64,000 bases of DNA from Gracilimonas sp. (GTDB lineage: Bacteria > Bacteroidota > Rhodothermia > Balneolales > Balneolaceae). The stretch spans positions 227,326 through 291,325 of the forward strand of contig NZ_JAVJQO010000003.1 of the NCBI RefSeq assembly GCF_040218225.1. The letters run 5' to 3'. The notes below the pieces were generated by a model. That model searched no databases and was not told where the DNA came from. It saw nothing but the letters and a program-made list of their open reading frames with translations. How positions within the stretch are numbered: the stretch's first letter is position 1; each line of letters starts with the position of its first letter. Shown here in pieces: positions 13,144 through 47,381 of this stretch. Made by a program: the position numbers and the translations under genes.

Positions 13144-15339
13144 TTAGGCTTTTATACCGTTCTTCTTAAGAAGTTTGTTTAAGTCTATCGGTAATTGCTT
13201 ATTCCACATGCCATAATAGGCTCCTTTTTTTGAAAAAAGGCTTTCATGATTCCCTTCTTCAATTAGCTTACCTTTTTCCAAAACGCAAATTTTGTCCGCT
13301 CCAAGTACAGTGCTAAGTCTGTGTGCAATCAGAATAATGGTCTTCCCTTCCTTTCTAAGTTCTTCTACGGTTCTTTGGATATAATTCTCTGCTGATGAGT
13401 CTAGCGAAGAAGTCGCTTCATCAAGAATTAAAATTTCAGGGTCTTTGTATAAAGCTCTTGCGATGGCAATTTTTTGCTTTTGTCCTCCAGACAATGAAGC
13501 CCCATTTTCTCCTAAATAGGTATTAAAACTATTGGGAAGTTCTTCAATAAAATCAAGAATGTTTAATTTCTTACAAATGCCAATAATCTTTTCCACATCT
13601 GGTTCCAATTCACCAATGGCAATATTTGAAGTAACATTACCATCAAAAAGATCAATGTCTTGAGGAACTACACTTATATTTTTTCTCAAGCTTTTGTTGC
13701 TTATATAATCAAGGTTTATATCTCCAACTAAAACCTGGCCACTTTTAATAGGATATAATTTTAACAGAATATTGATTAGCGTTGTTTTTCCAGAACCGCT
13801 TTCACCTACAAAAGCCGTAATTTTTCCTTTAGGTATCGCAATACTAAAATTTTCGAATACGGTTACACGTGACCCATATCTAAATTCGATGTTTTTAAAT
13901 TCTATGGCTCCAATATTTTCTGGATTTATATCTATTTCCTGACCTTCTTTTTCTTTTTCAAGGTCCATGATTTCAAATAAACGATCACCTGCAATCAGGG
14001 CATCTTGTATCTGTACATTCATCCCAACTAATTGACTTACCGGCCCTGTGAAATAACCTATGAGGGCATAAAATGACAACAGTTCTCCAGGGGTGATAGA
14101 CTGTTGTAAAACATAATATCCCCCTACCCATAGCAGTATGATTGTAAATATCCGGGATGAAAATTGGGTTGAGTTTCCAGAGAAGATGGAATTTAGCCCC
14201 GAGCGATAAATATGCTGTAGCAATCCCACGAAACGGGTTTCCGTTTTCATGTTAGCAAATCCTTCTAAGCCAAATTGCTTAATAGTAGAGGCAGAGTTTA
14301 TAGACTCTACTAAATGAGATTCTAAATCCGCTGCGCTTTCCATGACCTTGCGTTGCGTTTTCTTGTTTATGTGATTTGTAATCAAATAAATGATACCATA
14401 AACGGGAACAATCAGGAGCATCACCAGACCCAGTTTCCAGTAATACGTAAACATCAAGCCAAATGAGAAAACTACTGTTAACACACTTACGGCAAGATTA
14501 ATAGAAACATCATTAATAAAAGCGCGAATTTTTACGGCGTCCCCAATCCTTGAAATAATTTCACCGGTCCGCATAGTGTCAAAAAATCGCTGGGGAAGAC
14601 GTATCAAATGTTTGTAGTAGCCCAATATTAATCGTGCATCCATCAGCTGCCCGGTTTTAAGTACAAACAAACTTCTGATCACACCAATGAAAATTTGAAA
14701 TATGAGAAGGGTGATCATCCCCACGCTTAGTAGATTCAATAAATTCATATTCCCGCCTGTGAGCACATGATCAATAATCAACTGCACGTAAATAGCTGTT
14801 GACAATCCAATAATGGTATAAATCAACGCTCCAAAAAAAGCCTGAATTAATACCCATTTATGCGGTTTCATCAGAAACCATAACCGGCTCATGATGGAGA
14901 CTTTTTCATCAGCAGGAGTAAACTCTTCTGAAGGCAAGAGTAAAATAAGTACACCCGTCCATTTCTGTTCAAAATCTGATCGTTCAATCTTATGCTTTCC
15001 CCCATCCATTGGATCCATTACCACTACATGCTTTTTTGTCACTTGATAAATCACCAAAAAATGATGGAGTACATCTTTCACAACAACATGGGCGATAGCA
15101 GGTAACGGAATTTGGGTAAGACTGTCCATTTCACCTTTTACGCCCTTGGCTTCGAAGCCTAATTTTTCAGCGGCTTCAATCATTCCTAAAACATTAGTGC
15201 CTTTTTTATCTGTTGAAGCATACTGCCGTATTCTAGCAATAGGAACTTTTAATTCATAATGTGCCGCCACGGAAGCTAGACAAGCCGCACCGCAATCGGT
15301 TATATCATGCTGTTTGACCCCAACTCTATTAATATTCAT
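13144..15339 (-). CDS. C39-peptidase-containing ABC exporter (PCAT)
   Basis: A 731-residue inner-membrane exporter that cuts double-glycine leaders and pumps out the mature peptide. The N-terminal C39 cysteine peptidase (1-130) has the catalytic Cys16 in QHDITDCGAAC, His93 in LHHFLVIY and Asp109 in VVMDPMDGG. Six transmembrane helices follow (about 160-430). The ATPase domain has Walker A GESGSGKTT, signature LSGGQKQK, Walker B ILILDEATSSLD and the H-loop IAHRLS. All catalytic elements are intact, so it should be active. It is the last gene of the minus-strand cassette, 12 bp after the adaptor gene. Its likely substrates are the two short precursor peptides encoded at 16541-16926. Confidence 0.92.
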   Translation of the reverse strand: MNINRVGVKQHDITDCGAACLASVAAHYELKVPIARIRQYASTDKKGTNVLGMIEAAEKLGFEAKGVKGEMDSLTQIPLPAIAHVVVKDVLHHFLVIYQVTKKHVVVMDPMDGGKHKIERSDFEQKWTGVLILLLPSEEFTPADEKVSIMSRLWFLMKPHKWVLIQAFFGALIYTIIGLSTAIYVQLIIDHVLTGGNMNLLNLLSVGMITLLIFQIFIGVIRSLFVLKTGQLMDARLILGYYKHLIRLPQRFFDTMRTGEIISRIGDAVKIRAFINDVSINLAVSVLTVVFSFGLMFTYYWKLGLVMLLIVPVYGIIYLITNHINKKTQRKVMESAADLESHLVESINSASTIKQFGLEGFANMKTETRFVGLLQHIYRSGLNSIFSGNSTQFSSRIFTIILLWVGGYYVLQQSITPGELLSFYALIGYFTGPVSQLVGMNVQIQDALIAGDRLFEIMDLEKEKEGQEIDINPENIGAIEFKNIEFRYGSRVTVFENFSIAIPKGKITAFVGESGSGKTTLINILLKLYPIKSGQVLVGDINLDYISNKSLRKNISVVPQDIDLFDGNVTSNIAIGELEPDVEKIIGICKKLNILDFIEELPNSFNTYLGENGASLSGGQKQKIAIARALYKDPEILILDEATSSLDSSAENYIQRTVEELRKEGKTIILIAHRLSTVLGADKICVLEKGKLIEEGNHESLFSKKGAYYGMWNKQLPIDLNKLLKKNGIKA

Positions 15340-15351
15340 TTCTACTCTCTT

Positions 15352-16491
15352 TTATGCCGGGTTCAGCCAATCATCTACATTATCATATAACAGTTGGAAA
15401 AGGCTCCTTTCAGTTACAATAAACCTTCCCTGGAGTACCATTCCTTTTTTTAGATTGCCCTTATAACCATTAGGCAGCTCCAGAAAATCCTGATTCAACT
15501 TGCATCGCACCAAGAAAACAGGTTGGTCTTGTATAACGGTTACATCATCTGATATCTCAGAAATAGAACCATACAAACTCCCCCATTGATTATGATCGAA
15601 TGCATTAATCTGGAATCGGGCCTGCATTCCTTCTTTCAGTAAACCTATATCTCGGGTAGAAACATACAGCTCTGCAATTAAAGCCGTATTCGGTGAAATT
15701 TCAGCAATTTTTTCATTTACATAGATCATGCTTTTTTCAGAAATGCCTGCTACATTTTGAATGACTCCATCTACCGGGGCGTATAGAGAGTGCCGTTCTT
15801 TTTCCTTTTTTAATTGAGTAAGATCAGCCTGTAGCCCTTTTAATTCTTGTTCAAAATTGTCTAATTCTTGCTGCCAGCTATTTAATTTTGATCTTTGCAG
15901 TAATTCTAATCTTCTTTTTTCAGATTCAAGTTGAAATGTTTGTTGCTCTAATTCGGCTTGACTGATTAGCTGTTTATCGAAAAGTTGCTTTTGGCGATTA
16001 TATTCAGACTCAATATTGTGAACACTTGCCTCCAAGTCAGTTTTTTCCTGTTCAAAAGCCAACCATTCTGAACGATATAGGGGAGTGCTTAAAGAAATTT
16101 GTGATTCGCCTTTTAATTTTCTTTTAATGGATTTCAAATCCCAAATATACTTCCTAAGTACTGACTGGCGCTGCCGGTTGTATTCCATACTTTGTTCTAT
16201 CTCTTCGGAGTCAATGGCTGCAAGTAGTTCCCCTTTTTGAACAGGATAATTTTCCTCGATTTTAAATTCCGAAATTACTCCCGTAACCGGAGCTTTAAGA
16301 ACCTGCCGTTCGGTGGCAGCTCGTATCACGCCGTTACTTTTCACACTTACATCAGCTTGAATGAAGGGAAGAGCTGCAAATAAACCTATCACAAAACACA
16401 GGGTAGAGCTGTACAAAATTTGTGAGCTTACAGTATGCCGAACCGAAAGGCTTTGTGTGGTTTGTTCAAGGATTTCTTTTGGGAAAAGCAT
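15352..16491 (-). CDS. HlyD-family membrane fusion (adaptor) protein of the peptide exporter
   Basis: A 379-residue periplasmic adaptor. It has one N-terminal membrane helix (about 25-45) and a biotinyl-lipoyl-like hairpin half (VLKAPVTGVISEFKIEENY). A long coiled coil rich in Glu, Gln and Lys follows (about 95-235), then the second lipoyl half (SLYAPVDGVIQNVAG) and a C-terminal beta-barrel. It would join the ABC exporter to an outer-membrane TolC-type channel, which is not encoded nearby. The ATG at 16491 lies just after a hairpin with a T run, so its expression probably depends on read-through from the peptide genes. No strong ribosome-binding site is visible. Confidence 0.88.
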   Translation of the reverse strand: MLFPKEILEQTTQSLSVRHTVSSQILYSSTLCFVIGLFAALPFIQADVSVKSNGVIRAATERQVLKAPVTGVISEFKIEENYPVQKGELLAAIDSEEIEQSMEYNRQRQSVLRKYIWDLKSIKRKLKGESQISLSTPLYRSEWLAFEQEKTDLEASVHNIESEYNRQKQLFDKQLISQAELEQQTFQLESEKRRLELLQRSKLNSWQQELDNFEQELKGLQADLTQLKKEKERHSLYAPVDGVIQNVAGISEKSMIYVNEKIAEISPNTALIAELYVSTRDIGLLKEGMQARFQINAFDHNQWGSLYGSISEISDDVTVIQDQPVFLVRCKLNQDFLELPNGYKGNLKKGMVLQGRFIVTERSLFQLLYDNVDDWLNPA

Positions 16492-16494
16492 ATC

Positions 16495-16532
16495 CAGAAA
16501 AAGGTGAATGAGTGGTTATCTCATTCACCTAA
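16495..16532 (-). terminator. Intergenic terminator/attenuator between peptide and exporter genes
   Basis: AGGTGAATGAG (16502-16512), a 7-base loop and CTCATTCACCT (16520-16530) form a perfect 11-bp stem. On the minus strand it is followed at once by TTTTT. It lies between the stop of peptide 2 and the start of the adaptor gene, where partial termination would give more precursor peptide than exporter. Confidence 0.8.
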
Positions 16533-16540
16533 TTATTGAT

Positions 16541-16708
16541 TTATAGTAACTCATCCCAAAAGCAATTCCATGCTTCTGTTGCTTCTTCAACAGCTATATT
16601 TTCTAATACTTTTTTCCCAATCTTAGCCCAAGGTACACCAAAGCCAGCACTTAAAGATTGCATTTCAATATTAGTAAGTTCTATTAAGTTATTTTTTTCT
16701 GTTTTCAT
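16541..16708 (-). CDS. Short double-glycine-type precursor peptide 2 (bacteriocin-like)
   Basis: A 55-codon gene starting MKTEKNNLIELTN and stopping at TAA 16541-16543. Residues 11-22, LTNIEMQSLSAG, match the double-glycine leader pattern LSxxELxxIxGG, with Leu at -12, Glu at -8, Met at -7, Leu at -4 and AG at -2/-1. Cleavage by the C39 exporter would release a 33-residue core beginning FGVPWAKIGKKVLENIA and ending in an acidic, aromatic tail with one Cys (Cys49). A purine-rich AGGGAT lies just upstream. It starts 11 bp after the peptide 1 stop and is followed by a strong hairpin. I infer a class II bacteriocin-like or signalling peptide; I recognise no named family. Confidence 0.75.
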   Translation of the reverse strand: MKTEKNNLIELTNIEMQSLSAGFGVPWAKIGKKVLENIAVEEATEAWNCFWDELL

Positions 16709-16719
16709 AGTTTTATCCC

Positions 16720-16926
16720 TTAGTTTTCACATTGATTATTTGCAGCTATCCAGTAACTACCTGATGAATTTACAGCCGCACCTCCTGGACTACTTCCTAT
16801 GCCCGTTTTAACAACACGTGCAAGAAATTTTCCAATAGCACAACCTATCCCTCCTCCGTTTATCTTCTTTTGTTTATCTTTACTTATTAAGTAATAATTG
16901 GTTTTTAGAATATTATTTCTATTCAT
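16720..16926 (-). CDS. Short double-glycine precursor peptide 1 (bacteriocin-like)
   Basis: A 68-residue peptide. The leader runs to GG (residues 24-25) with ISKDKQKKINGG (14-25) fitting the double-glycine leader pattern. The predicted 43-residue core starts GIGCAIGKFLARVV. It is rich in Gly, Ala and Ser with GxxxG-like spacing, and has cysteines at 29 and 66 that could form a disulfide. A small, cationic then glycine-rich core with a helix-prone start is typical of pore-forming class II bacteriocins. Together with peptide 2 it may be a two-peptide system, which is inference. It is the first short peptide of the cassette and lies 35 bp after a symmetrical inverted repeat. Confidence 0.8.
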   Translation of the reverse strand: MNRNNILKTNYYLISKDKQKKINGGGIGCAIGKFLARVVKTGIGSSPGGAAVNSSGSYWIAANNQCEN

Positions 16927-16950
16927 AATTAATACCTTTTATTTAATTAA

Positions 16951-16985
16951 AATTATAATCAAGCCTGATCGGCTTACCTATAATT
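16951..16985. promoter_or_regulatory. Symmetrical inverted repeat upstream of peptide 1
   Basis: AATTATA, 3 bases, AAGCC, 5 bases, GGCTT, 3 bases, TATAATT forms a 35-bp structure with two nested perfect arms, 25 bp upstream of the peptide 1 start and 17 bp after the small HTH gene. It could be an operator for one of the two cassette regulators, or a hairpin limiting read-through from the HTH gene. There is no clean T run, which favours an operator. Confidence 0.5.
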
Positions 16986-17001
16986 GTAATTAATACTGCA
17001 G

Positions 17002-17310
17002 TTATACAGCAGTGGACAAAAATTTATTGTATGAAAGAGAACTTGTATATCCAGCTCCTAAGCTTCTTTGCTCGTCTTTACTCATAAACTCTATTACAAG
17101 ACTACCTTTGCAAGTATAAACATAACTCCTTCTCCTCCTTGAATACTTGATAGGGCAATCAAAATCATGCTTCAATTCGTTTAGTATTTCATAGAGCCAT
17201 CGTTCCGAAATGCCTAATTTTTCAGCCAGTTCTTTGGGAGTACCTGTGCATTTCCTTCTTATCAAATAATCTAAATACTCTACCCGATCTAGTGATTTTT
17301 TTAAACCCAT
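17002..17310 (-). CDS. Small HTH regulator with a C-terminal double-glycine-leader-like motif
   Basis: A 102-residue protein. Residues 5-70 are an HTH_11/YafY-type winged helix (DRVEYLDYLIRRKCTGTPKE, ELAEKLGISERWLYEILNEL, then an Arg-rich KYSRRRRSYVY wing). Residues 76-87, MSKDEQRSLGAG, align with the leader of peptide 1 (ISKDKQKKINGG), sharing S, K, D, Q and the final G, and with peptide 2 (LTNIEMQSLSAG). Fifteen residues follow, YTSSLSYNKFLSTAV. So a DNA-binding protein carries what looks like a C39 cleavage site and a releasable tail. It probably regulates the cassette. The leader-like part may be coincidence, but the match to its neighbours argues against that. The start ATG at 17310 is the only good one. 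Confidence 0.75.
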   Translation of the reverse strand: MGLKKSLDRVEYLDYLIRRKCTGTPKELAEKLGISERWLYEILNELKHDFDCPIKYSRRRRSYVYTCKGSLVIEFMSKDEQRSLGAGYTSSLSYNKFLSTAV

Positions 17311-17401
17311 ACGAAAATTAATTTCCCGACCTTTTTAATTTCTAATAACTAAATAGGTAATTCTATTATTTTCAAGATATATCGCCCCCCAATTTGTGCT
17401 T

Positions 17402-17749
17402 TTACTCGTAACCCATTGCCAGTTCTTGTTTTAAGGCTGTTAAATTTTTATCAAAATTAGCTGATAAAAATTTATGAAGTGACTTTTCGTTAGCCAATCC
17501 TGCATTTACAGCAATTCTAAAACCGATTGCTGTAGGAGTCTTGCGAATTTCTTTTTTTATAAGGCTAAGTCGAAAACTTTTTAGTTGATCTTTGGGACAT
17601 ATTCCAAATTCTTTTTTAAAAATTCGGCAATAATGAGACCTCGAATATCCCATTTTTTCTGCCCACTCACTTACTGTTAGAATTTCTAGATAATTCTTTT
17701 CGAGTATTTCTATGGCCATAGAAATACCGAGCCTTTTGTCTTTCCCCAT
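17402..17749 (-). CDS. AraC-type HTH domain protein
   Basis: A 115-residue protein made almost only of an AraC/XylS double-HTH domain: ILEKNYLEILTVSEWAEKMG, then YSRSHYCRIFKKEFGICPKD, then IGFRIAVNAGLANEKSLHKF. No N-terminal sensing domain is present, so it is a short, stand-alone activator or repressor. It is the first gene of the minus-strand cassette, 91 bp upstream of the small HTH gene. Low GC, like its neighbours, sets this block apart from the flanking metabolic genes and suggests acquisition as a unit. Its target is probably the cassette promoter; this is inferred from position. Confidence 0.7.
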   Translation of the reverse strand: MGKDKRLGISMAIEILEKNYLEILTVSEWAEKMGYSRSHYCRIFKKEFGICPKDQLKSFRLSLIKKEIRKTPTAIGFRIAVNAGLANEKSLHKFLSANFDKNLTALKQELAMGYE

Positions 17750-27933: not shown

Positions 27934-29076
27934 TTAAAGGTTGCCTCTGGCGTCCTGTTCGCGTTCAATGGCTTCAAATAACGCTTTGAAATTTCCTTTT
28001 CCGAATCCTCGTGCACCTTTACGCTGAATGATTTCAAAGAATAACGTAGGCCGGTCAACAACTGGTTTTGTGAAAATCTGAAGCAAATAACCTTCGTCAT
28101 CACGATCTACCAAAATCCCAAGGTCTTCCAGCTTCTCAATAGGCTCATCAATTTTACCGACCCGGTCTTCCAGTTCTTCATAATAAGTAGTCGGAACTTT
28201 CAGGAATTCCACGCCGCGGTCCCTGAGTTTGGTAACCGTGCCAATAATATCTCCGGTCAGCAATGCAATATGTTGCACTCCCGGACCCTCAAAGAAATCC
28301 AGGTATTCTTCAATCTGGGATTTTTTCTTACCATCGGCGGGCTCATTGATTGGAAACTTAATCATTCCCCTTCCCCCCGCCATTACACGGCTCATTAATG
28401 CCGAGTATTCGGTAGAGATATCCTTGTCATCAAAGCTTATGTATTGAGTGAATCCAAGTACATCGCGGTAGAAATCAACCCAATCTTCCATTCGGCCTAA
28501 CTCTACATTCCCTACGCAATGATCCACAAACTCAACGCCAACCGGCTCCGATTTAACCAGACTCTCCTTGGCTTCAAATCCCGGCATAAACAATCCATTG
28601 TACTCAGAGCGATCGATAAAGGAATGAATGACATCTCCATAGGTTTTAATGGCTGCTTTCCGGATGGTCCCATGTTTATCTTTCATATCATGAGGTTCCA
28701 GTACAGGTTCTGCCCCGCGCTTCACCGATTCATTAAAAGCCCGGTCTACATCTTCTACATGCATGGCTATATCTCTGACACCATCTCCATGCTTTTGAAC
28801 AAACTTGGCAATGGGTGAATCACTGTTGAGAGGAGCCGAAAGCACAAACCGGATATTTCCCTGCTCCAGATAATAGGAAGCCCGATCACGAATACCTGTT
28901 TCCAGGCCTGAATACCCTTTTAATTGAAAGCCAAAGGTAGTGATGTAGAAATGTGCAGCCTGTTTGGCATTGTTTACATAGTGTTCCACATAATCTACAT
29001 CCTGCAGCCCAAGATGATCATCAAATTTTTCTTCCAGAGGTCGCTTCAGGGTATCTGATTGGTTAGCCATATTCAC
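27934..29076 (-). CDS. hppD: 4-hydroxyphenylpyruvate dioxygenase
   Basis: A 380-residue enzyme with two VOC domains that makes homogentisate from 4-hydroxyphenylpyruvate, using Fe(II) and oxygen. The iron ligands are visible: His186 in EFVDHCVGN, His269 in [11 protein letters not shown] and Glu348 in [11 protein letters not shown]. Length and the C-terminal gating helix ([17 protein letters not shown]) are typical. The start is the ATG at 29076; a second ATG two codons later is also possible. It heads the minus-strand hppD-hmgA pair. A 13-base motif 41 bp upstream is shared with the paaA promoter region, hinting at joint control of aromatic catabolism. Confidence 0.94.
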
Positions 29077-29116
29077 GCTTTTATTTAATCTTTATTCACT
29101 GAGAAAATACAAAATA

Positions 29117-29129
29117 AAAAGCGCTTCCA
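29117..29129. promoter_or_regulatory. AAAAGCGCTTCCA motif upstream of hppD
   Basis: A 13-base motif with the palindromic core AAGCGCTT, 41-53 bp upstream of the hppD start. The identical 13 bases lie at 33747-33759, 21 bp upstream of paaA. A common operator for aromatic catabolic genes is inferred; two matches are weak proof. Confidence 0.35.
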
Positions 29130-29236
29130 TAAGAGTAAAAATTTGTGGCTCTTGGATTTGTTTGGGCTGCCTGGCTATTGCCGTTTTAGTTAGAGGCGGG
29201 GCATCTTGATGAGAATAAATCTCTTTGCTGCTCACT

Positions 29237-29252
29237 CGGACCGGGTGGTCCG
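29237..29252. repeat. Short GC-rich palindrome near the chaperone gene end
   Basis: CGGACC-GGGT-GGTCCG is a perfect 6-bp stem in the 212-bp spacer between hppD and the SecB-like gene. No T run follows, so a terminator is unlikely. It marks one side of the toxin-antitoxin block. Confidence 0.4.
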
Positions 29253-29288
29253 GCGGGACGTTGGAGATGAGATTAACTACTTCACTCA

Positions 29289-29732
29289 CTAATCAACACT
29301 CAACTCAATTTCGATATCCTCAGTAATGATTTTAGTAAGATTGATTGGAGGAATAATGAAATCGCTAAAATCTGTTTCGCTAGTCTTTTCATGAAGTACA
29401 CCTCTGGCAGTACCAACTGTTAATACTGCCATGTGAGAAGCAAAACCTTCCGGTATTATTATTTTATTATTGTCTACGTCAATCAATGATTCCCAGGCTT
29501 CTTCTTCCATTTCAAAGCCACAGGTCACAGAAATGATTAAGAAAGGCTTGTCATTTTGTTCAAACTGAAATTTAACAGTAGTCCCTAAAATGTGTTTTTC
29601 TTTATCTACCCGAAAGTTGAAAGAAGATTCAAGACTAACTTTCCCTTCTTCCTCAAAACTATCCTCAATTATGGCAAACTCATCGGTTTTAATGCTTACC
29701 AAGCGAAAACTAAGTGCTAATTCTTTGCTCAT
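29289..29732 (-). CDS. SecB-like chaperone of a toxin-antitoxin-chaperone module (probable)
   Basis: A 147-residue cytoplasmic protein. The layout follows SecB: an opening beta strand (ALSFRLVSIKTDEF), strands VSLESSFNFRV and GTTVKFQFEQ, the middle strand FLIISVTCGFEM, then helix EGFASHMAVLTVGTARGVLH, and the loop FIIPPINLTKI, which parallels the SecB APVNFDALF segment. Identity looks low, so this is a structural-pattern call. Its ATG overlaps the antitoxin stop by four bases (ATGA), showing translational coupling. SecB-like chaperones in this position (Mycobacterium HigBA-SecB, Escherichia CmdTAC) protect and fold the antitoxin. No signal peptide. Confidence 0.6.
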   Translation of the reverse strand: MSKELALSFRLVSIKTDEFAIIEDSFEEEGKVSLESSFNFRVDKEKHILGTTVKFQFEQNDKPFLIISVTCGFEMEEEAWESLIDVDNNKIIIPEGFASHMAVLTVGTARGVLHEKTSETDFSDFIIPPINLTKIITEDIEIELSVD

Positions 29733-30172
29733 GCCGCTTCTCTATAATTATAATCCGAATCTAATGGTTGTGTAAAAACATCTCCAAAATCTACCTGAGC
29801 ACCAACACTTGGTTTTTTCCGCTTTCCAAGATTTGTTTTAACCTCTTTTTTATCCACATCTAACTTGGTTCGATATTTAGGTACACCAACCAATTCAACT
29901 CCAAGCACCTGCTCCAATTTGGAGATTGTTTCGAGAGTCAAATTTTGTTTCCCTTTTACAATCTTACTGATTTGCTGAGGAGAAACATCCAGTGCTTCCG
30001 CCAATTCTTTTTGCTGCATACCTTTCTCATCAAGAACATCTAAAATACGGAGGGCGATATCCTGAGATTTTCGTAACCACTTTCTATTGGCACGACGATA
30101 CTTTGCATCCTCTTTCCAGCCACTGGTATCATCAATGGCAATTTCTTCTATTTTTTTTCTAATATCTGTCAT
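29729..30172 (-). CDS. HigA-like XRE antitoxin with C-terminal tail
   Basis: A 147-residue protein. Residues about 53-92 are an XRE helix-turn-helix: MQQKELAEALDVSPQQISKI, then VKGKQNLTLETISKLEQVLG. The first 50 residues are a helical arm rich in Lys and Arg. About 55 residues after the HTH (from PKYRTKLDVDKKEV to the end YNYREAA) are not part of the fold; in chaperone-dependent antitoxins an equivalent tail makes the antitoxin rely on SecB. The gene starts three bases after the toxin stop and overlaps the chaperone start. It probably represses its own operon at the palindrome upstream of the toxin. Confidence 0.75.
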   Translation of the reverse strand: MTDIRKKIEEIAIDDTSGWKEDAKYRRANRKWLRKSQDIALRILDVLDEKGMQQKELAEALDVSPQQISKIVKGKQNLTLETISKLEQVLGVELVGVPKYRTKLDVDKKEVKTNLGKRKKPSVGAQVDFGDVFTQPLDSDYNYREAA

Positions 30173-30175
30173 ATC

Positions 30176-30751
30176 TCAAATCCCTAATTCAAGCTTTTCA
30201 AATTCTTCTTCATTGATCAAACCTTTATTCTTCAAATATCTAACGGCCTGATCCATCTTTTTCAATTCAAGTTTGGTATGGTCTCGGTTATTCATATCCT
30301 CAGTGAGCTTTATGGCTCCTCCGGTAATCACATACAAATGTTTATCAATTCGAATAGCATATAATCTAAGCCAGGTTTCTTCATCTAAAGTAGCTTTGCT
30401 TTCTTGTAAAGGATAACGCTGGTCTTTTTCTTTGTTGTGTAGTGGTTTAAAAAGAGTTTCAAGGATTTCCTCTTTGTCATTTATCCCGTTTTCAGCTTTT
30501 TCTATTAAAACTTCTTCTAAGTTTTCAATGTCATTGATAGTTTTTCTTACGGCATCATTGATACTATACAAAACTCCATGGAACTCACAATAGGCCTTTA
30601 AATCTTTTTCATGTGTTTTAAAAAATTCTCTTAGATACTCCGGGTCAATCCATAAATCTATATTTCTATAAAGTTCATGAATTTCCTCTCCCGTGTACTG
30701 CACAGCATACAATACTGGTTGAGGAGCGTCTATTATACGTACAATCTTCAT
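30176..30751 (-). CDS. Probable toxin of a toxin-antitoxin-chaperone module
   Basis: A 191-residue protein from the ATG at 30751 (MKIVRIIDAPQPVLYAVQY). An in-frame start at 30778 is possible, but it would place a perfect palindromic operator inside the coding region, so I reject it. The C-terminal part (LRLYAIRIDKHLYVITGGAI, then KKMDQAVRYLKNKGL) resembles RelE/HigB-related toxin folds with the typical strand order near the end, and the N-terminal half is a helical domain larger than in classical HigB. Function is inferred mainly from being the first gene of a toxin-then-antitoxin operon. The target, mRNA or other, is unknown. Confidence 0.6.
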   Translation of the reverse strand: MKIVRIIDAPQPVLYAVQYTGEEIHELYRNIDLWIDPEYLREFFKTHEKDLKAYCEFHGVLYSINDAVRKTINDIENLEEVLIEKAENGINDKEEILETLFKPLHNKEKDQRYPLQESKATLDEETWLRLYAIRIDKHLYVITGGAIKLTEDMNNRDHTKLELKKMDQAVRYLKNKGLINEEEFEKLELGI

Positions 30752-30753
30752 AT

Positions 30754-30775
30754 CAATCAACCTGTGAGTTGATTG
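30754..30775. promoter_or_regulatory. Palindromic operator of the toxin operon
   Basis: CAATCAAC-CTGTGA-GTTGATTG has perfect 8-bp arms and a 6-base centre, directly upstream of the toxin ATG at 30751. This is the usual place for an antitoxin-bound operator. Confidence 0.7.
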
Positions 30776-30891
30776 CAAAGTTCCTTGCTTCGATCATTAA
30801 TGTTGTACATTGAGTCATTTTGTTATCTATTAAAGGCTTCTTGGAAAAATTTTCTAATTATATCTTCCTATAAGCTCATCTGTGAATATGA

Positions 30892-31572
30892 TTAATTTCC
30901 TAACAACTTAACCACGTGTTCCATTAGAGCCGGAGCATATTCCGAAACATGTATTAATGCAGAGATATGAGATAAAAACTCAAAAAACTTTACAGCAATC
31001 TTTTCGTCCTTTTGCATTACTTCGATTTGCATAAAGTAACTGCCAAATGCACTTTCAACTTCTTTCTGAATTAAGGCAGTGCCTTTCAGTTCGTAATCAA
31101 ATATTGCTCTTTCAATATCATTGACTTTATCAAAAATGAGGCTACTCAATTGATGATCTATTTCATATCCAGAGAGATCATTTTTAAACTCTTGAACTTT
31201 TTTTCTTAGTACTTCTAAATCATCTTCTTCAAGTACTTTTTCATTAGAATATTTTGAAAGCATATCTGAACAATGCTCGATAGATAAAACAGTCGCTTCA
31301 TCTAATTGCTTCTTTATTCCCTGCCAACTTGAGTTAAAATTGATATTACTAAGAGCTCTTTCTACAACACCCAATTTTTTCAGATGCAATTGATGATTCT
31401 CATCTTCATGGCTAATGACATCCTCTCTTATTGTGGCCGGAAGTTTGTTTACTTCCCCTAATTTTCTAAGTATCTCAGCGGTATTCTTTGAATCTAAATC
31501 AAAAATTTCTGCCCATGCTTCTTTAACCTTTTTCCGGTCATCAATTTTTTGAGCTTTTTGGAATAATGGCAT
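30892..31572 (-). CDS. Hypothetical helical protein beside the toxin module
   Basis: A 226-residue protein that I do not recognise. It is almost all predicted helix, rich in Lys and Glu, with heptad-like stretches (VLEEDDLEVLRKKVQEFKN and FDKVNDIERAIFDYELKG). There is no signal peptide and no membrane segment. It lies 141 bp upstream of the toxin gene on the same strand and shares its low GC, so it may be a further part of the same acquired block or an unrelated cargo gene. No catalytic motif is visible. It is bounded on the far side by a gene-poor, palindrome-rich spacer. Confidence 0.6.
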   Translation of the reverse strand: MPLFQKAQKIDDRKKVKEAWAEIFDLDSKNTAEILRKLGEVNKLPATIREDVISHEDENHQLHLKKLGVVERALSNINFNSSWQGIKKQLDEATVLSIEHCSDMLSKYSNEKVLEEDDLEVLRKKVQEFKNDLSGYEIDHQLSSLIFDKVNDIERAIFDYELKGTALIQKEVESAFGSYFMQIEVMQKDEKIAVKFFEFLSHISALIHVSEYAPALMEHVVKLLGN

Positions 31573-32001
31573 GTTTCCCCGAGTCCAGCCATTGGTCGGA
31601 CGAGCTTGGAGTCGTCAGACCAAGAGCTTTGGTTTAAATCAATTTAATATCAACGGATTATAGCGAAAGCGAGAGTAAATTGGAAAGAAGGTTTCGAACA
31701 AGTTTCGAACATGGCAGTTCGTCCAGATTGTACTACCTGCCAAAACTCCCACCAAAGCGTCCTCTTGCCCTGAGGCGGTCGCAAAAGGTTAGAATTTTAT
31801 TCAGGCGTGCCGGAGGGAAAGAGACAGAGATAGGGTCCTGTTAGACTTGGCAATTTTGTTTTCACCGGAAACAGAGTTCCCAAGTATGCATTACGAAGCA
31901 AAAACTTCGTAACGAAAACTACTTCATTATTGAATGTTCAATGTTCCTTATTCAATATTCCATCGGGCTTAGAAAAACGAGCGTTAAGAAGAAGCCGTAA
32001 T
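31573..32001. other. Gene-poor spacer rich in palindromes
   Basis: A 429-bp stretch without a credible gene. It contains an inverted repeat TTGGTCGGACGA/TCGTCAGACCAA at 31592-31623, a hairpin-prone ACTTGG...CCAAGT element around 31845-31886 and perfect 8-bp arms TTACGAAG/CTTCGTAA at 31891-31912. Parts look like degenerate mobile or palindromic repeat material. No tRNA fold was found. Confidence 0.55.
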
Positions 32002-33279
32002 TTAAAGCGCACTACTCGGGCCTTTTGCATCCCTTTTCTGAAACCTGAGTTCAAATGATGTTTTTTTATCCTGTTCTGTAGCAGATAACGTTCCGTTTAG
32101 CTGAGCGGTTAGTGTTTTAACAAGAAGCATCCCCAGGCTTTCCGGTTTTTCCAGGTTATAGTCGGCACTGCTTTTTTCGCCATTATCAGAAATAGTTAAA
32201 ATAACCTGCTCTCCTTCCTGTTCAATTCCTACTTCAATAATGGGTTCAGTAATATCGTCAAATGAGTTCAGATAGGCGTTAAGCAGCAACTCATTACACA
32301 ATAATCCAGCGGGTACCGCCTGATTGATATTGAGGTTTAAATCGGGGAGGTCTGCTTTAAGTTTGATCTTATTCTTACCCTGTTCTTTTTTAAATGTGTC
32401 ATATACAAACTCTACTAACTGATTCAGATAATCTCCAAAATTTATATGAGAGGTTTTCTCTGCATCAGCATATGACTCATGTACCAATGCAAGACATTTG
32501 AGCCGCATTTTACTGTCGTGCAGGATAGCATGAACATTTTCGTTTTTGGTGCACATGGCCTGCAGGTCAAATAATGCAGATATTAACGCCAGATTATTTC
32601 GCACCCGGTGGTGTATCTCGGCAAGTAATGTTTCTTTGGCTTTCAGAGATTTTTTTAAGGCTTTTTCTGCCTCTTTCTGTTCTGTTATATCTTCAAGCAT
32701 AACCACCAGATATGCCGGTTTTTCTTCACCATTAAACACAGCAGATTTTGATACAAGGCCCGGGAAATAGGTTCCGTCTTTTCTCCGGTATCGTTTCTGA
32801 ATTTTAAAAAATGGATGTTTTTGGTCAGCCAGTTCCTGATCTAAAGTCCTTCCTTTAGTTAAGTCTTTTGGGTGAATAAAATCTTCAAAATTAAGTGTTA
32901 GCAATTCCTCTCTTGTATATCCAAGCATGTCACAGAGCGTTTGATTTACCTGAATCCAATTCTCGTTGGGCTTGTGGTGGGCTATGCCTACTGGGGCGTA
33001 TTCAAAAGTAGCTTTAAACTCGTCCCTGCTTTTGCTTAGCTTATCGAAAGCTTCGCTGAGTAACGAATTATTTTTCCACACCAATGCATATACCATGACC
33101 CCGCTCACTAATACAAAAAACCATCCTTTAAGTGACTGAACCCATGTAATCATTTTCGGATCATCGAAATAGGCGAGAACAGATTGATCAGAATACTGTA
33201 TCCAAACGGCACCAATCAGGATGTAAACGAGAGCAATTATAAACGGACTATTTTTCAGAATAGTTTTTATGCGATCCAT
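32002..33279 (-). CDS. Membrane PAS sensor histidine kinase, HisKA_2 type
   Basis: A 425-residue kinase. Two membrane helices lie at about 12-30 and 45-65, so the sensing loop outside is very short. A PAS domain with PAC follows (about 85-205; FKATFEYAPVGIAHHKPN). The HisKA_2 phosphoacceptor region has EIHHRVRNNLALISALFDLQ near residue 221. A HATPase_c domain follows with NELLLNAYLNSF and LTISDNGEK. HisKA_2 kinases often signal to response regulators encoded elsewhere, and none is adjacent. It is divergent from the paa operon, 500 bp away, and might sense aromatic compounds, but that is only a positional guess. Confidence 0.85.
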   Translation of the reverse strand: MDRIKTILKNSPFIIALVYILIGAVWIQYSDQSVLAYFDDPKMITWVQSLKGWFFVLVSGVMVYALVWKNNSLLSEAFDKLSKSRDEFKATFEYAPVGIAHHKPNENWIQVNQTLCDMLGYTREELLTLNFEDFIHPKDLTKGRTLDQELADQKHPFFKIQKRYRRKDGTYFPGLVSKSAVFNGEEKPAYLVVMLEDITEQKEAEKALKKSLKAKETLLAEIHHRVRNNLALISALFDLQAMCTKNENVHAILHDSKMRLKCLALVHESYADAEKTSHINFGDYLNQLVEFVYDTFKKEQGKNKIKLKADLPDLNLNINQAVPAGLLCNELLLNAYLNSFDDITEPIIEVGIEQEGEQVILTISDNGEKSSADYNLEKPESLGMLLVKTLTAQLNGTLSATEQDKKTSFELRFQKRDAKGPSSAL

Positions 33280-33779
33280 GCAGTACTCCTTTTCTCAGTA
33301 AAACGATCAGCCATAACCAACGTATTTTGTTATAAGTAATCGTGCCTGTTCTTCTTGAATTATTTGTCGTGAATAGGATATACAGCTATAGGAACCCTGG
33401 TACCTGTAACTAAAAGCCTAACAGTTATTTGATATCCAAACCTATCGCTGATATTCTGCTACAAAGAGTAGGCTGGGAGTAAATTGTTACACTTTTATTT
33501 TCCAGCTGTTTTTTAATGGTTTAGGGGTGCCTTGAAGTACTGAAAAAGATTTAGGTTGATTTAAAACCCCGGAAATGAGTACGAACTTTTATCTCGAAAA
33601 GAGTATCAAGCTTTTTTGATCTTCTAGAAAGTTTTAAGAAAACGTCTGCATAAAAATATTCTTTCCATGAAATGAAAATTTTGAATTATCTAGACAGAAA
33701 TTTCAATTCCCGAACTTCTCTTTTTAAATTCCTGTTAAAGAGACTGAAAAGCGCTTCCAAAAAATCGTATATTTACCTC
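33280..33779. promoter_or_regulatory. Divergent promoter region between the PAS kinase and the paa operon
   Basis: A 500-bp AT-rich spacer with no credible gene. It must hold the kinase promoter and the paa promoter. The only motif I can name is AAAAGCGCTTCCA at 33747-33759, shared with the hppD upstream region. No Rho-independent terminator or riboswitch fold was recognised. Confidence 0.6.
33747..33759. promoter_or_regulatory. AAAAGCGCTTCCA motif upstream of paaA
   Basis: Identical in 13 bases to the motif upstream of hppD and centred on the palindrome AAGCGCTT. It ends 21 bp before the paaA start, a position suited to a repressor. Confidence 0.35.
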
Positions 33780-34724
33780 ATGGAAAACCAAGAAAAGTTA
33801 GACGAATTTCAAGCCCGTATTGACGCGGGAGAAAAAATAGAACCCAAAGATTGGATGCCGGAACGGTATCGCCAGCAGTTAATCAGGATGATGAGCCAGC
33901 ACGCTCACTCCGAAATTGTGGGCATGTTGCCGGAAGGAAACTGGATCGAAAGAGCTCCTTCTTTAAAGAGGAAACTTGTGCTCCTGGCCAAGGTTCAGGA
34001 TGAAGCCGGTCACGGACTTTATCTATATAGTGCTACCGAAACGCTGGGTATTGATCGCAGCGAACTGGTTGACCAGTACTTATACGGCAGTGCCAAGTAC
34101 TCCAGCATATTCAATTACCCTACCATGACTTATGCTGATATTTGTGCTATTGGCTGGTTGGTGGACGGAGCGGCTATTGTAAACCAAACCATGCTGGCCC
34201 GTTCTTCCTACGGTCCTTATTCCCGCGCTAATGTTCGTATTTGTAAGGAAGAAAGCTTCCACAAAAAGCAGGGATATGAAATGCTCGCCAAGATGGCGGA
34301 CGGAACTCCTGAGCAGCAAAAAATGGCTCAGGATTCAGTGAACCGCTGGTGGTGGCCAAGCCTTATGATGTTTGGACCGCACGATTCAGATTCTCCAAAT
34401 AGTGCAGAACTCATTAAATGGCAGGTGAAGCTTAAAACCAATGACGAACTTCGCCAGCATTTTGTTGACCGCATGGTGATGGAAGCCGAAGCCATTGGTG
34501 TTAGCCTTCCCGATCCGGATTTGGAATACAATGAAGAAACAGGACACTGGGATTTTGGTGACATCCCCTGGGATGAATTCTGGAACGTAGTGAAAGGCAA
34601 TGGCGTCATGAACCGGGAGCGTATGAAAGCCCGCCGCAATGCTCATGAAAATGGCGAATGGGTTCGGGAGGCGGCGACTGAATATGCCCGCAAGCAGAAA
34701 CTGAGCCAGGAAAAGGCATCGTAA
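33780..34724 (+). CDS. paaA: Phenylacetyl-CoA epoxidase catalytic subunit PaaA
   Basis: 314 residues from the ATG at 33780 ([20 protein letters not shown]). The frame is open 36 codons further upstream, but that part has no family match. PaaA is the diiron monooxygenase subunit that epoxidises the ring of phenylacetyl-CoA. Ferritin-like diiron motifs are visible as [14 protein letters not shown] and [12 protein letters not shown]. It heads the plus-strand paa operon. A REP-like element separates it from paaB, so it may be regulated or processed apart from the rest. Length is normal for the family. Confidence 0.94.
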
Positions 34725-43153: not shown

Positions 43154-45220
43154 ATGAAAGAACAAGAAACAAGAAACCAGATACGAGTTACCAGCTACAT
43201 ACAAGGCAAATGGTTAACCAATGGCACAGAAACAGACCTCATCAGTGCAGTAACCAATGAGCCAGTCGCTCAGATGGTTGAAGCAAATATTGATTATAAA
43301 TCTGCACTGGAATATGCCCGAAAAACGGGCGGGCCAAAGCTTCGTGAGATGACCATACACGAACGGGCGTTTGCAATCAAGTTCCTCGGCAAATACCTGA
43401 TGGAGCGTAAGGAGAAGTATTATAAAATCTCCACTCACACCGGGGCTACCCGCAAAGATTCATGGATTGATATCGAAGGAGGGTTAATCACTGCTTTTGG
43501 AATTTCGAGTAAATCACGGCGCGAGCTATCAGATCTTCCATGGCATGTAGAGGGCAACACAGAACGACTTTCCCGAAAAGGCTCGTTCATGGGGCAGCAT
43601 ATTTGTGTACCTCGTCATGGAGTGGCTGTTCATATCAATGCTTTTAACTTCCCGATTTGGGGAATGCTGGAGAAACTTGCGCCATCCATAATTGCAGGAA
43701 TGCCCGTTATTGTAAAACCATCTCCAATTGGATCTTATCTTTCCTGGGAAGTTTTCAAAGACATGATTGAATCTGAAATACTGCCTGAAGGAAGTATTCA
43801 GTATATCGCTGCCGATAAACCTGGTGATTTACTGAATCATCTGATCAGCCAGGATATGGTCGCTTTCACTGGCTCAGCTGACACGGGAAAGAAACTGAAA
43901 GCACATCCCAATATAATAGCCAACAGTGTTCCTTTTAATCTGGAAGCTGATTCTCTGAACTGTTCTATTTTGGGTGAGGACGTCACTCCGGATATGGAAG
44001 AGTTCGATCTTTTTATCAAAGAAGTAGCACAGGAAATGACGGTAAAAACCGGGCAAAAATGTACGGCTATCAGACGGACTATCGTCCCTGAAAATTTAGA
44101 AGATGAAGTCATCAACGCTTTAAAGTCCCGTTTAGAGAAAACTACAATCGGTCATCCCGCTGAGAAAGAAACACGAATGGGTCCTTTAGCCAGTTCTCTT
44201 CAGGTTGAACGATTTGAGGAGCAGCTTCAGAAATTGTCCGAGATTACAGAAACAGTTTATACGGCAAATGGATCTCAAAAGGGGGCGTTCACAAATCCGC
44301 GTGTGCTCGTTTGTCACCAGCCTATGCAAGTGGATGAAATTCACCGGCTGGAGGCCTTTGGTCCTATGACCACCATCATGCCATATAAATCTACTGAAGA
44401 AGCTATAGAGCTCGCTAATAAAGCAAACGGTTCTTTGGTGGGATCTCTATTTACTGCTGATGATAAAATAGCGCATAAAATAACAATGGGATGCGCTCCC
44501 TATCATGGCCGGTTTATGGTGATTAACCGCAATTCTGCTGAAGAATCAACCGGACATGGTTCTCCAATTGCCTCATTGGTTCACGGAGGACCGGGACATG
44601 CCGGGGGAGGCGAGGAACTTGGAGGAGCCCGGGCAGTACTTCATAATATGCAACGGGTTGCTTTGCAGGGATCACCGACTACACTTAGAAACATTGTAAA
44701 ACAGCATATTTCAGGAGCTGAAACGGAAGAGTCGGACAAGCATCCTTTCCAGAAGTACTTTGAAGAGCTAAAAGTTGGCGAAGCTTTAACCACTGAAAAG
44801 CGAACAGTCACTGAAAAAGATGTTGAGGAATTTGCAGAGTTAAGCGGTGATCATTTTTATGCACATACTGACCCGGACGCTGCTGCCCGCTCTTTGTTTG
44901 GTAAGATAGTAGCTCATGGCTATTTCGTGCTTTCAGCAACAGCCGGACTTTTTGTTCATCCGGATGAAGGCCCCATGATGTTGAACTATGGACTGGAAAA
45001 CCTTCGGTTCGTTGCTCCCGTTGCCCCCGGCGATACCATTCAGGCTAAATTAATCCTGAAACGGAAGAATGTCCGCCAGCAAAAGAAAGACGACCCATTT
45101 CCTTTTGGTGTAGTTTACTGGGATGTGGAAGTAACTAATCAAGAGGATGCTGTTGTTGCTGAATACACCATCCTCACTTTAATGAAACGGAAAAACAAAT
45201 TGGATATCGATGAGTTATAA
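43154..45220 (+). CDS. paaZ: Bifunctional PaaZ: aldehyde dehydrogenase and oxepin-CoA hydrolase
   Basis: 688 residues. The N-terminal aldehyde dehydrogenase domain (about 1-525) has the Glu of FNLEADSLNCSIL and the catalytic Cys in KTGQKCTAIRR. The C-terminal MaoC-like R-specific hydratase domain (about 545-688) has the hydratase motif ELSGDHFYAHTDPDAA and the following GKIVAHGYF. It opens the oxepin ring and oxidises the aldehyde. Both active sites are intact. Length is the family norm. The last codons overlap the next gene by 11 bases in a different frame. Confidence 0.93.
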   Translation: MKEQETRNQIRVTSYIQGKWLTNGTETDLISAVTNEPVAQMVEANIDYKSALEYARKTGGPKLREMTIHERAFAIKFLGKYLMERKEKYYKISTHTGATRKDSWIDIEGGLITAFGISSKSRRELSDLPWHVEGNTERLSRKGSFMGQHICVPRHGVAVHINAFNFPIWGMLEKLAPSIIAGMPVIVKPSPIGSYLSWEVFKDMIESEILPEGSIQYIAADKPGDLLNHLISQDMVAFTGSADTGKKLKAHPNIIANSVPFNLEADSLNCSILGEDVTPDMEEFDLFIKEVAQEMTVKTGQKCTAIRRTIVPENLEDEVINALKSRLEKTTIGHPAEKETRMGPLASSLQVERFEEQLQKLSEITETVYTANGSQKGAFTNPRVLVCHQPMQVDEIHRLEAFGPMTTIMPYKSTEEAIELANKANGSLVGSLFTADDKIAHKITMGCAPYHGRFMVINRNSAEESTGHGSPIASLVHGGPGHAGGGEELGGARAVLHNMQRVALQGSPTTLRNIVKQHISGAETEESDKHPFQKYFEELKVGEALTTEKRTVTEKDVEEFAELSGDHFYAHTDPDAAARSLFGKIVAHGYFVLSATAGLFVHPDEGPMMLNYGLENLRFVAPVAPGDTIQAKLILKRKNVRQQKKDDPFPFGVVYWDVEVTNQEDAVVAEYTILTLMKRKNKLDIDEL

Positions 45221-46559
45221 GTCCCCGTTCCTTCTGCTATTATTGATTATTTTTATTTCTTGTAATAAAGAAAATGATCCAACTTTATTTTCTCTTTCAG
45301 TAACTGTTGTTCCTGAGAACTCTGGGTTCATTCAAAATTTCTCAGATACGCTACTTAAAAAAAATACTACTGTAGAATTACAAGCGGTTTCCAATGAAGG
45401 ATATGCATTTATAGATTGGGAAGGGAGTGTCTCCTCTGATGACAATCCTTTAGAGTTTACGATAACTGAGAATACTGATTTAGTAGCTAATTTTGAAAAA
45501 AAGTCCTATCCATTAAATGTAACCACCCTTGGGGAGGGTGATGTCACTGAAACCATTATTAAAACAAAGACAGATTACGAATATGGTACCATAGTTCAAT
45601 TAGAAGCTATTCCAGATTCAACTTGGGTCTTTGAAGGATGGGAAGGGAGTGTGAATGGAGAAGAAAATCCCGTTCAATTAACAATCACTTCTGAAATGAA
45701 TGTAACAGCTGTTTTTGAAGAAGGAACAATCAACTACTGTGTTCCCATTAAATTAGATGGTTATGCTCATAAAAGTAGCGGAGACTCTGTTCACTTTATG
45801 GACTACGATTTTCAATACAGTGATCAGTATTTATCCACTTATACAAAGTACTATAATTATACAAAAGCTCATTTAGATAATGTAGATGCCTTCATTGAAG
45901 CAAATTATACCTATCAAAATAATCTTATTCATCAGATTGTTGAAAACACAAAAACTAAATCTGGAGATATCTGGGCTAGTTATAAATATACTCTTGGTTG
46001 GAATGGTGAACAGCTAGCAACACTTGATTATGAATATTTTGTTGGTAATCAAACGGGTGATATAAAGAGTACAAGAATTGAATATGAAGAACCATGCGGA
46101 TTACGGTATTTTGAAGCCGAAGGCATGGATGCTGGTATTCGAATTGGATTCTCAACAGAATTCATTTATTCAAATAATTGCCTCACCTATGAATTAACTA
46201 CAACAGATGATGGAATTAGAACTTACAAAAATCAAAACTCAATTTTTATAGATGTCTTAGGATTAAATGGATTTATTGGCAACAGATACGAACATATGTT
46301 TTCTTTTTTTCAACCAATTCCACTTTATAACAAAGAAAATCAAAGGCTTTATAAAACAACGTCTCAATATATCAATCCTGATGAGCCATATATAGGTACC
46401 TCGGTAAACTATGAAACAATTACAGAGAATTATTTTTACGAATCATTTATTCAGGATCAAGATTACCCGAGATATTTTTCAAGAATTATCACAGATACTA
46501 AAGACGATTCGGAAAACAAAGACACTTTTACAGTGAGTTATGCTTGTCAATATAAATGA
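45210..46559 (+). CDS. AT-rich lipoprotein with two bacterial-repeat (InlB/Flg_new-like) domains
   Basis: A 449-residue lipoprotein with signal MSYKSPFLLLLLIIFISC (lipobox Cys18). Two repeats of about 70 residues follow, each with an EGYAFIDWEGSV or STWVFEGWEGSVNG centre, typical of Listeria-Bacteroides repeat domains. A C-terminal Tyr/Asn-rich part of about 270 residues shows YD-like strands. Base composition is clearly more AT-rich than paaZ and the next gene, suggesting later insertion. Its ATG lies inside paaZ, so it is translated from the operon. It is expected on the outer surface, with no link to phenylacetate metabolism. Function unknown. Confidence 0.78.
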   Translation: MSYKSPFLLLLLIIFISCNKENDPTLFSLSVTVVPENSGFIQNFSDTLLKKNTTVELQAVSNEGYAFIDWEGSVSSDDNPLEFTITENTDLVANFEKKSYPLNVTTLGEGDVTETIIKTKTDYEYGTIVQLEAIPDSTWVFEGWEGSVNGEENPVQLTITSEMNVTAVFEEGTINYCVPIKLDGYAHKSSGDSVHFMDYDFQYSDQYLSTYTKYYNYTKAHLDNVDAFIEANYTYQNNLIHQIVENTKTKSGDIWASYKYTLGWNGEQLATLDYEYFVGNQTGDIKSTRIEYEEPCGLRYFEAEGMDAGIRIGFSTEFIYSNNCLTYELTTTDDGIRTYKNQNSIFIDVLGLNGFIGNRYEHMFSFFQPIPLYNKENQRLYKTTSQYINPDEPYIGTSVNYETITENYFYESFIQDQDYPRYFSRIITDTKDDSENKDTFTVSYACQYK

Positions 46560-46598
46560 GGCAAAAGAACTTTTGAATTTTAAATTTTGAATTAAATA

Positions 46599-47363: not shown

Positions 47364-47381
47364 GGCAAAGTAAGTAAGAGC

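Follow-up and report, generated by a model that had tools for sequence, protein, structure and literature searches.

Introduction

Systems of the PCAT kind (TIGR01193, PCAT1, ComA) pair an exporter of the C39-peptidase ABC type with peptides whose precursors carry double-glycine-type (GG-type) leaders and are encoded beside that exporter. The cassette described here belongs to this kind: it consists of six minus-strand genes at positions 13144-17749 of a 64,000-nucleotide stretch of the genome of Gracilimonas sp. (Balneolaceae; assembly GCF_040218225.1, contig NZ_JAVJQO010000003.1), hereafter the window, which encode an AraC-type helix-turn-helix (HTH) protein, a small HTH protein, precursor A, precursor B, an HlyD adaptor and a C39-ABC exporter. 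Unlike PCAT systems, the regulator of the cassette, the small HTH protein, itself carries a leader-like segment and site, and unlike the PCAT comparators the cassette includes an HlyD adaptor, as Gram-negative systems do. We propose, with a rough probability of 0.55 and on sequence evidence, that the exporter has this regulator as its third substrate, which would couple export to transcription within a two-peptide export cassette.

Several other described systems resemble the cassette in part. Class IIb bacteriocins (lactobin A/cerein 7B, TIGR03949) likewise have two small adjacent GG precursors; unlike in that class, the peptides of the window are unmatched to the family and no immunity gene accompanies them in the window. 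The bacteroidetocins, in the available part of their description (PMC6671954), are likewise Bacteroidetes GG peptides with a double-glycine-peptidase ABC transporter and no obvious immunity gene; they are single peptides, with four cysteines in the two studied and a leader of 15-16 amino acids (aa), and are accompanied by genes for a five-transmembrane protein and a thiol oxidoreductase. The cassette, in contrast, has two peptides with leaders of 22-25 aa as well as HlyD and HTH genes, and neither of the two bacteroidetocin accessory genes is present among the cassette genes or their neighbours; by gene content, measured against that part of the description, it is not a bacteroidetocin locus.

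With respect to regulation, the pneumococcal rtg locus (RtgR, RtgS) likewise holds a regulator, an exporter and several GG peptides together under peptide-linked control; in the accessible portion of that account, the Rgg regulator and its pheromone are separate genes and the pheromone uses another transporter (PMC7018657). HetC of Nostoc is likewise a C39 exporter affecting transcription, and its authors proposed the cleavage of a substrate whose N-terminal portion is retained and targets a regulator; the substrate is not known, and the available text describes no GG-bearing regulator (PMC10986499). Among the sources at hand, this model is the closest published idea. A search confined to the open-access literature gave no account of a DNA-binding regulator that bears a C39 site.

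Gram-positive systems use a separate pheromone, kinase and response regulator for feedback. If the exporter cuts the regulator of its own operon, none of these three would be needed, and peptide secretion would possess a feedback built into one protein. Such an arrangement would constitute a concrete case of the HetC proposal, as set out in the accessible text, in which a peptidase-exporter alters transcription by cutting a substrate (PMC10986499).

A leader-like site in the small HTH regulator

The small HTH protein of the window ends in EQRSLGAG followed by a 15-residue tail, YTSSLSYNKFLSTAV, and a sister protein has DLNAG; in L036, a canonical case, the site is SGG and the tail has 12 residues. 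Relatives were taken from one scan of named genomes that gave 322 exporter loci, of which the best 80 (59-91% identity) were used; in these, the HTH sites share one alignment column and a short tail follows (in one alignment, A2, the 26 rows were mostly picked for carrying the site, and the invariance of Gly87 there is no test). Specifically, [GA]G occurs after residue 72 in 41 of the 47 HTH open reading frames (ORFs) located within 1 kb of exporter genes, as GG in 36, with two atypical cases among the 41, L078 being out of register and L020 having the site at the very end. All six that lack the site sit in loci with a second, site-bearing HTH, and none of three HTH ORFs located farther than 1 kb from exporter genes carries it. 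Similarly, [GA]G lies 14-34 residues past the wing in 55 of 70 non-redundant exporter-locus HTHs, 48 of them at 25-27 residues and 44 with GG, as compared with a mean of 9.8 and a maximum of 17 in shuffled tails.

The resemblance to a leader extends beyond the glycines. A leader matrix was derived from 137 precursor windows of the 80 relatives' loci, scoring positions -16 to -3 only, and was set against a background of 1737 [GA]G sites. By this glycine-free score the 41 HTH sites are separated with an area under the curve of 0.976 (p=9e-26), a value that compares the best site per HTH with single background sites, excludes 9 of 50 HTHs without a site and comes from rows that are not phylogenetically independent. 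Hydrophobic residues are found at -4 in 85%, at -7 in 47%, at -12 in 93% and at -15 in 75% of the 55 sites, with Glu at -8 in 33 of them, and this pattern matches the PCAT recognition positions -4, -7, -12 and -15 as stated in the portion of the rtg account available (PMC7018657). The leader pattern of a C39 substrate is present in the family; it is weaker in the copy of the window, and the site of the sister scores 4.8.

Evidence for a link between site and exporter was sought with a core-only HTH profile, cut before the site and built from exporter-locus HTHs, which was run on 299 + 292 genomes. Its 46 + 89 = 135 hits were read with their surroundings; four under 65 aa were dropped, 115 were left after removal of near-duplicates, and 20 of these, lacking C39 and with less than 4 kb of flank, were left out of the tabulation. 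A leader-like tail, as judged by score, is present in 21 of 31 HTHs beside C39 and HlyD, in 2 of 3 beside another ABC and in 9 of 45 without an ABC match. A site followed by at least eight residues is found in 23 of 31 beside C39 and HlyD versus 7 of 45 without an ABC match (p=3e-7), under a restriction to C39 and HlyD, a [GA]G window and an 8-residue limit that were chosen after the tails had been seen. Strict GG against any C39 neighbour gives a weaker contrast (24/47 versus 9/48, p=0.0012), and 12 phylogenetically independent pairs divide into seven that favour the exporter side, one opposite and four ties (p=0.035).

A number of observations weigh against the regulator as a substrate. Firstly, 15 of the 70 exporter-locus HTHs have no site, and 40 of 82 exporter loci (the 80, the window and G027, a sister cassette of the same genus) have no HTH-family member, some of them being ended by the contig; a member is present in the other 42. 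Secondly, positions -17 (82%) and -19 (71%) are hydrophobic too, such that part of the pattern may be wing strand. Thirdly, the site of the window is AG rather than GG and scores -0.9, within the top 1.3% of background. Additionally, a leader-like tail occurs in just 1 of 16 HTHs beside C39 without an HlyD match, and the nine leader-like cases without an ABC match comprise four with 0-5 residues past the site and five with 15-30; the late choice of limits noted above, and the coincidence of the Balneolaceae tail end with a DNA element described below, point in the same direction. Both the hydrophobic run into the wing and the exporter-adjacent HTHs without a site would be expected if this were an ordinary bacteriocin cassette in which the HTH site is never cut and the glycines and hydrophobic pattern serve fold or docking only. 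We consider that explanation improbable, given that the site is lost or tail-less in exporter-less relatives, including the close pairs L146/L149 and L148/L183, that the score beyond the glycines is leader-like, and that the structural model is disordered around the site.

The tail evolves differently from the domain that precedes it. The ratio of nonsynonymous to synonymous differences (pN/pS), pooled over five groups, is 0.54 in the tail versus 0.13 in the domain. Of 240 pairs, 229 have a higher identity in the HTH part than in the tail, and in three sister genes the tail shows a nonsynonymous divergence of 0.45-0.59 and a synonymous divergence of 0.41-0.55. This faster change would also suit a tail that is itself an exported pheromone, the HTH domain being its leader and leftover regulator in a one-gene peptide signal. 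Variable tails beside exporters fit such a signal, as do their lengths (10-44 residues in relatives and 15 here, with at least 10 residues past the site in all 55 site-bearing non-redundant HTHs) and the Allomuricauda group, in which tails keep a length of 12 and a common pattern. Set against this are the wide variation of tail sequences between genera and the Balneolaceae tail end, which is read from a DNA element, straight through it in some loci, and fits a signal poorly; on balance, a pheromone seems rather unlikely.

Large domain-like leaders occur in other peptide families, namely NHLP and Nif11. By analogy, the HTH part could have lost its regulatory role and serve solely as a very large leader of an additional, third export peptide, to which the leader-like site and tail would conform. 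The strong constraint on the HTH domain (the pN/pS of 0.13), the retention of helix-turn-helix and wing, and the operator-like repeats that lie beside the HTH gene and upstream of other precursor genes make this highly unlikely, and argue that the substrate we propose is still a regulator.

The domain is predicted to be a winged HTH from the secondary structure of the model, together with weak matches in the fold search and a Pfam match of one relative. The AlphaFold model has three helices plus a wing within residues 3-65 (H3-19, H25-32, H36-49, E54-57, E62-65), followed by a helix of low confidence (78-84) and by disorder from residue 85 onward, with a mean pLDDT of 68 and a pTM of 0.50 (both being model confidence scores). 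In Pfam the protein has sub-threshold HTH matches only, and the HTH of L043 is just above the cut-off of PF08279 (25.2 versus 25). A fold search gave weak matches, BrxR among them and none at E<=0.001, and an HTH-family profile run against the PDB returned antibody chains and a weak Aca7. Resemblance to winged HTHs of the WYL/HTH_11 type comes from the L043 match, from weak core-profile matches in frames of WYL length and from BrxR; unlike those regulators, the protein is about 100 aa long with no room for a sensor domain, and has a leader-like segment and tail past the wing. A paired form of the regulator also exists, in which a second small HTH without the site stands next to the exporter, directly before the site-bearing one (L029:9260-9592, L032:9209-9541, L042:9259-9591, L045:9259-9591).

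Operator-like repeats and a proposed mechanism

Outside the Balneolaceae, relatives have a palindrome, mostly (C/G)TCTCA-N3-6-TGAGA(G/C), that was first noticed in L036-like loci, where the putative operator segment for the HTH protein of L036 is CACTCTCAAAATTTGAGAGTG. It occurs 22 times in 2.73 Mb of sequence, part of which overlaps, versus 0, 1 and 4 times in Markov controls; among the 22 are sites of species that are nearly identical and sites that share a genome (L050 and L155). At ten sites it lies 16-22 nucleotides (nt) past the stop codon of an HTH gene, in one case (L038) after a site-less HTH. A GG precursor is located no more than 400 nt downstream of 19 of the 22, a count uncontrolled for precursor density that includes precursor genes not beside an HTH; similarly, a GG precursor lies within 450 nt after 28 of the 37 site-bearing HTH genes with enough sequence. 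A significant palindrome (p<=0.05) was present in just 9 of 43 spacers. Together, palindrome and HTH-GG protein mark genes of unnamed Bacteroidota peptides and could aid in their discovery.

The Balneolaceae element has a CACTG...CAGTG dyad; in 10 loci, that of the window included, it coincides with the 3' end of the HTH gene or lies close to it. The motif control is weak (17 sites versus 0-13 for shuffled motifs, and 23 sites in 914 kb of other loci), and the argument therefore rests on position. Because the dyad overlaps the 3' end of the HTH gene, the tails of three sisters share the end TAV. The second repeat of the window, between the small HTH and precursor A, was not seen in the same spacer of two sisters. 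The repeats are operator-like and, judging from their placement, may be bound by the HTH proteins. A single operator for all families was considered and rejected, as the Flavobacteriaceae and Balneolaceae elements differ.

In the mechanism we propose, the C39 domain of the exporter would cut both precursors after their GG/AG sites, and exporter and HlyD adaptor would send out both cores, which most likely act as a two-peptide bacteriocin swapped between sister species. The small winged-HTH protein would control the peptide genes by way of the operator-like repeat that overlaps its own stop codon, the segment past its wing would serve as a leader for the same C39 domain, and cutting after GAG would free the 15-residue tail. 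Docking or cutting would alter the regulator such that peptide transcription tracks the activity or capacity of the exporter. Directly observed are the gene set, the leader-like site, the conservation of its column, the link with the exporter, the faster change of the tail and the repeats; we infer the binding and cutting of the regulator by C39, the binding of the HTH to the repeats, which way the effect runs, and that the cores act as a bacteriocin. Extended beyond this genome, the proposal is more tentative, falling slightly short of even odds: Balneolaceae and other Bacteroidota would possess a class of winged-HTH regulators with a C39 leader at the C-terminus. Being cut by the exporter that they serve would let these regulators read its activity, perhaps with the tail as a signal, and they would control exchangeable cargo from a palindromic operator beside their own gene.

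Cargo peptides and their exchange

Both precursors have a leader of the GG type, with hydrophobic recognition positions and a GG or variant end, that of precursor B being SAG. The leader of precursor B scores 13.5 and exceeds all 1737 background sites, and that of precursor A scores 1.5, within the top 0.8%. Precursors recognised by score are common in related loci, with at least one anywhere in the locus in 68 of 80 and exactly two in 29 of 80. As the original prediction had stated, the peptides fall outside named families: neither has a family in Pfam or NCBIfam at E<=1, a class IIb family included, or a PHROGs match at E<=0.1, and no homologue was found at E<=1e-3 among 91 other genomes of the family. 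A plasmid search returned nothing for precursor B and one weak match for precursor A (E 0.01) under an annotated aldolase/dehydrogenase gene. When compared with relatives' precursors, the end of precursor B (AWNCFW) resembles a GG precursor of L207 with a score of 52, where 95% of 60 shuffle maxima lie at 38, and the best match of precursor A equals its shuffle limit of 43.

Comparison of sister cassettes reveals replacement of this cargo. In G027 the cassette adjoins GltX and WbqC, as in the window, and identity to the window is 95% for the exporter, 89% for HlyD, 83% for the small HTH and 70% for the AraC protein. DNA similarity ends at window position 17066 and returns at the HlyD start, 16491, and the slot between contains two different GG precursors, of 59 and 60 aa, along with a membrane ORF of 45 aa. 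G091, of another genus, has an exporter 91% identical and a third cargo set, with GG precursors of 72 and 66 aa and a 63-aa membrane ORF; the linkage of its HTH and exporter is a probable one, since both lie at contig ends, the HTH on C9 and the exporter on C7. Exporters of 95% and 91% identity beside quite different peptide pairs place the cassette within a widespread kind of Bacteroidota export system whose cargo is exchanged. Recent transfer between genera was also considered and was not accepted: the contrast between exporter and GltX identity in G091 (91% versus 84%) is suggestive only, and no such contrast is seen in G027 (95% versus 98%) or G010 (72% versus 75%).

A two-peptide bacteriocin is a plausible, and the most likely, identity for the two cores, judging from their genes and leaders. 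Two adjacent GG precursors share an operon with an exporter, as in class IIb, the exchange of cargo between sisters is compatible with toxins, and of nine precursors tested from relatives, one (L010:9783-9992) exceeds the class IIb lactobin/cerein cut-off (22.4 versus 21.5 bits). Class IIb loci have a dedicated immunity gene beside the precursors. In the window none is recognisable, as had been predicted, there being no extra same-strand ORF between precursor A, precursor B and HlyD. This lack, together with the role of GG-secreted small proteins in cyanobacterial biofilm development as reported in the accessible part of one study (PMC4997328), would suit peptides that are signals or developmental factors rather than bacteriocins. 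We regard that alternative as doubtful, since whole cargo is replaced between sister cassettes, the cargo slot of both sisters holds a small membrane ORF and the relative's precursor mentioned above exceeds a bacteriocin cut-off.

The 45- and 63-aa membrane ORFs that end the cargo slots of the two sisters (L140:6786-6923 and L273:7613-7804) lie just past a hairpin seen by eye and are candidate immunity genes. In other loci, membrane ORFs without a GG leader have a C-terminus similar to that of a GG precursor encoded in their own locus (L033:9795-9935, L053:10003-10116, L037:10437-10577, L048:9972-10103, L043:6714-6848, L030:10301-10429, L029:11834-11971). Such own-locus resemblance places 11 of 56 candidate ORFs in the top 5% (binomial p=9e-5, with rows that are not independent), and a membrane-anchored copy of the toxin end is a possible form of immunity. 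No resembling membrane ORF is present in the window, and the membrane ORF of G091 is unlike its precursors.

Exporter, adaptor, AraC-type protein and layout of the cassette

The exporter is an ordinary PCAT family member by its domains and scores, carrying an N-terminal C39 peptidase in one chain with ABC permease and ATPase (Peptidase_C39, ABC_membrane and ABC_tran in Pfam) and 533.8 bits to TIGR01193 versus a curated cut-off of 523.85. Alignment with PCAT1 structures, 4ry2 among them, runs almost the whole length of the protein (residues 6-714) and has Cys16, His93 and Asp109, the presumed catalytic residues, within the aligned motifs. It is found at E<=1e-150 in 20 of 92 genomes of the family of the window, its own included. 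The adaptor is above the Pfam cut-offs of HlyD_3 and HlyD_D23, and HlyD matches accompany the exporter in 79 of the 80 loci, the remaining locus beginning inside the exporter gene.

The original prediction, which had read the six genes as one AT-rich unit for peptide export, its two double-glycine precursors having 68 and 55 codons and cores of 43 and 33 residues, is partly supported as a whole. The ORFs, Pfam, TIGR01193 and the leader scores bear out the unit, the precursors and their sizes, and GC content is 36.3% in the cassette versus 45.2% and 45.0% in the 5 kb flanking either side. All six genes are present, but the AraC gene does not belong to the recurrent unit, and the small HTH, whose likeness to an exporter substrate had been missed, is the recurrent regulator. 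The AraC-type protein is above the cut-off of PF00165 and its gene is common to the closest sister, G027; a recurrent role was rejected, since the gene was not found at E<=1e-2 in 80 other exporter loci and its relatives number up to six copies per genome.

Coordinates of the cassette features are collected in Table 1. A hairpin scan gave 5 terminator-like sites in the region versus 3.3 in shuffles; a promoter scan gave 9 versus 17.1, and its result was not used.

Table 1. Features of the peptide-export cassette, in window coordinates.
Feature	Position	Strand	Basis
C39-peptidase ABC exporter, 731 aa	13144..15339	-	Pfam; TIGR01193 above cut-off; PCAT1 alignment
HlyD-type adaptor, 379 aa	15352..16491	-	PF13437 and PF16576 above cut-off
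Terminator-like hairpin between peptide and exporter genes	16502..16530	-	11-pair stem, then T-rich tail
Precursor B, 55 aa; predicted leader 22 aa (SAG end), core 33 aa	16541..16708	-	Leader score 13.5
Precursor A, 68 aa; predicted leader 25 aa (NGG end), core 43 aa with two Cys	16720..16926	-	Leader score 1.5
Inverted repeat between small HTH and precursor A	16943..16993	.	23-nt arms, 83% complementary
Operator-like dyad CACTGC...GCAGTA over HTH stop codon	16994..17014	.	Position; related element in relatives
Small winged-HTH regulator (predicted), 102 aa, C-terminal double-glycine-type site	17002..17310	-	AlphaFold; kept beside exporters
Leader-like segment of HTH protein, residues 72-87, GAG end	17050..17097	-	Aligned site in relatives; score -0.9
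Predicted released tail of HTH protein, residues 88-102, YTSSLSYNKFLSTAV	17005..17049	-	Disordered, low-confidence in model
Stand-alone AraC-type DNA-binding protein, 115 aa, accessory	17402..17749	-	PF00165 above cut-off

Within the 3.54 Mb genome, the cassette holds the sole match covering the C39 part of the exporter and the sole match at E<=1e-5 to the small-HTH core profile. Two more AT-rich stretches of cassette-like composition (GC 34-40%) lie elsewhere in the window, at 29001-34000 and 45001-50000.

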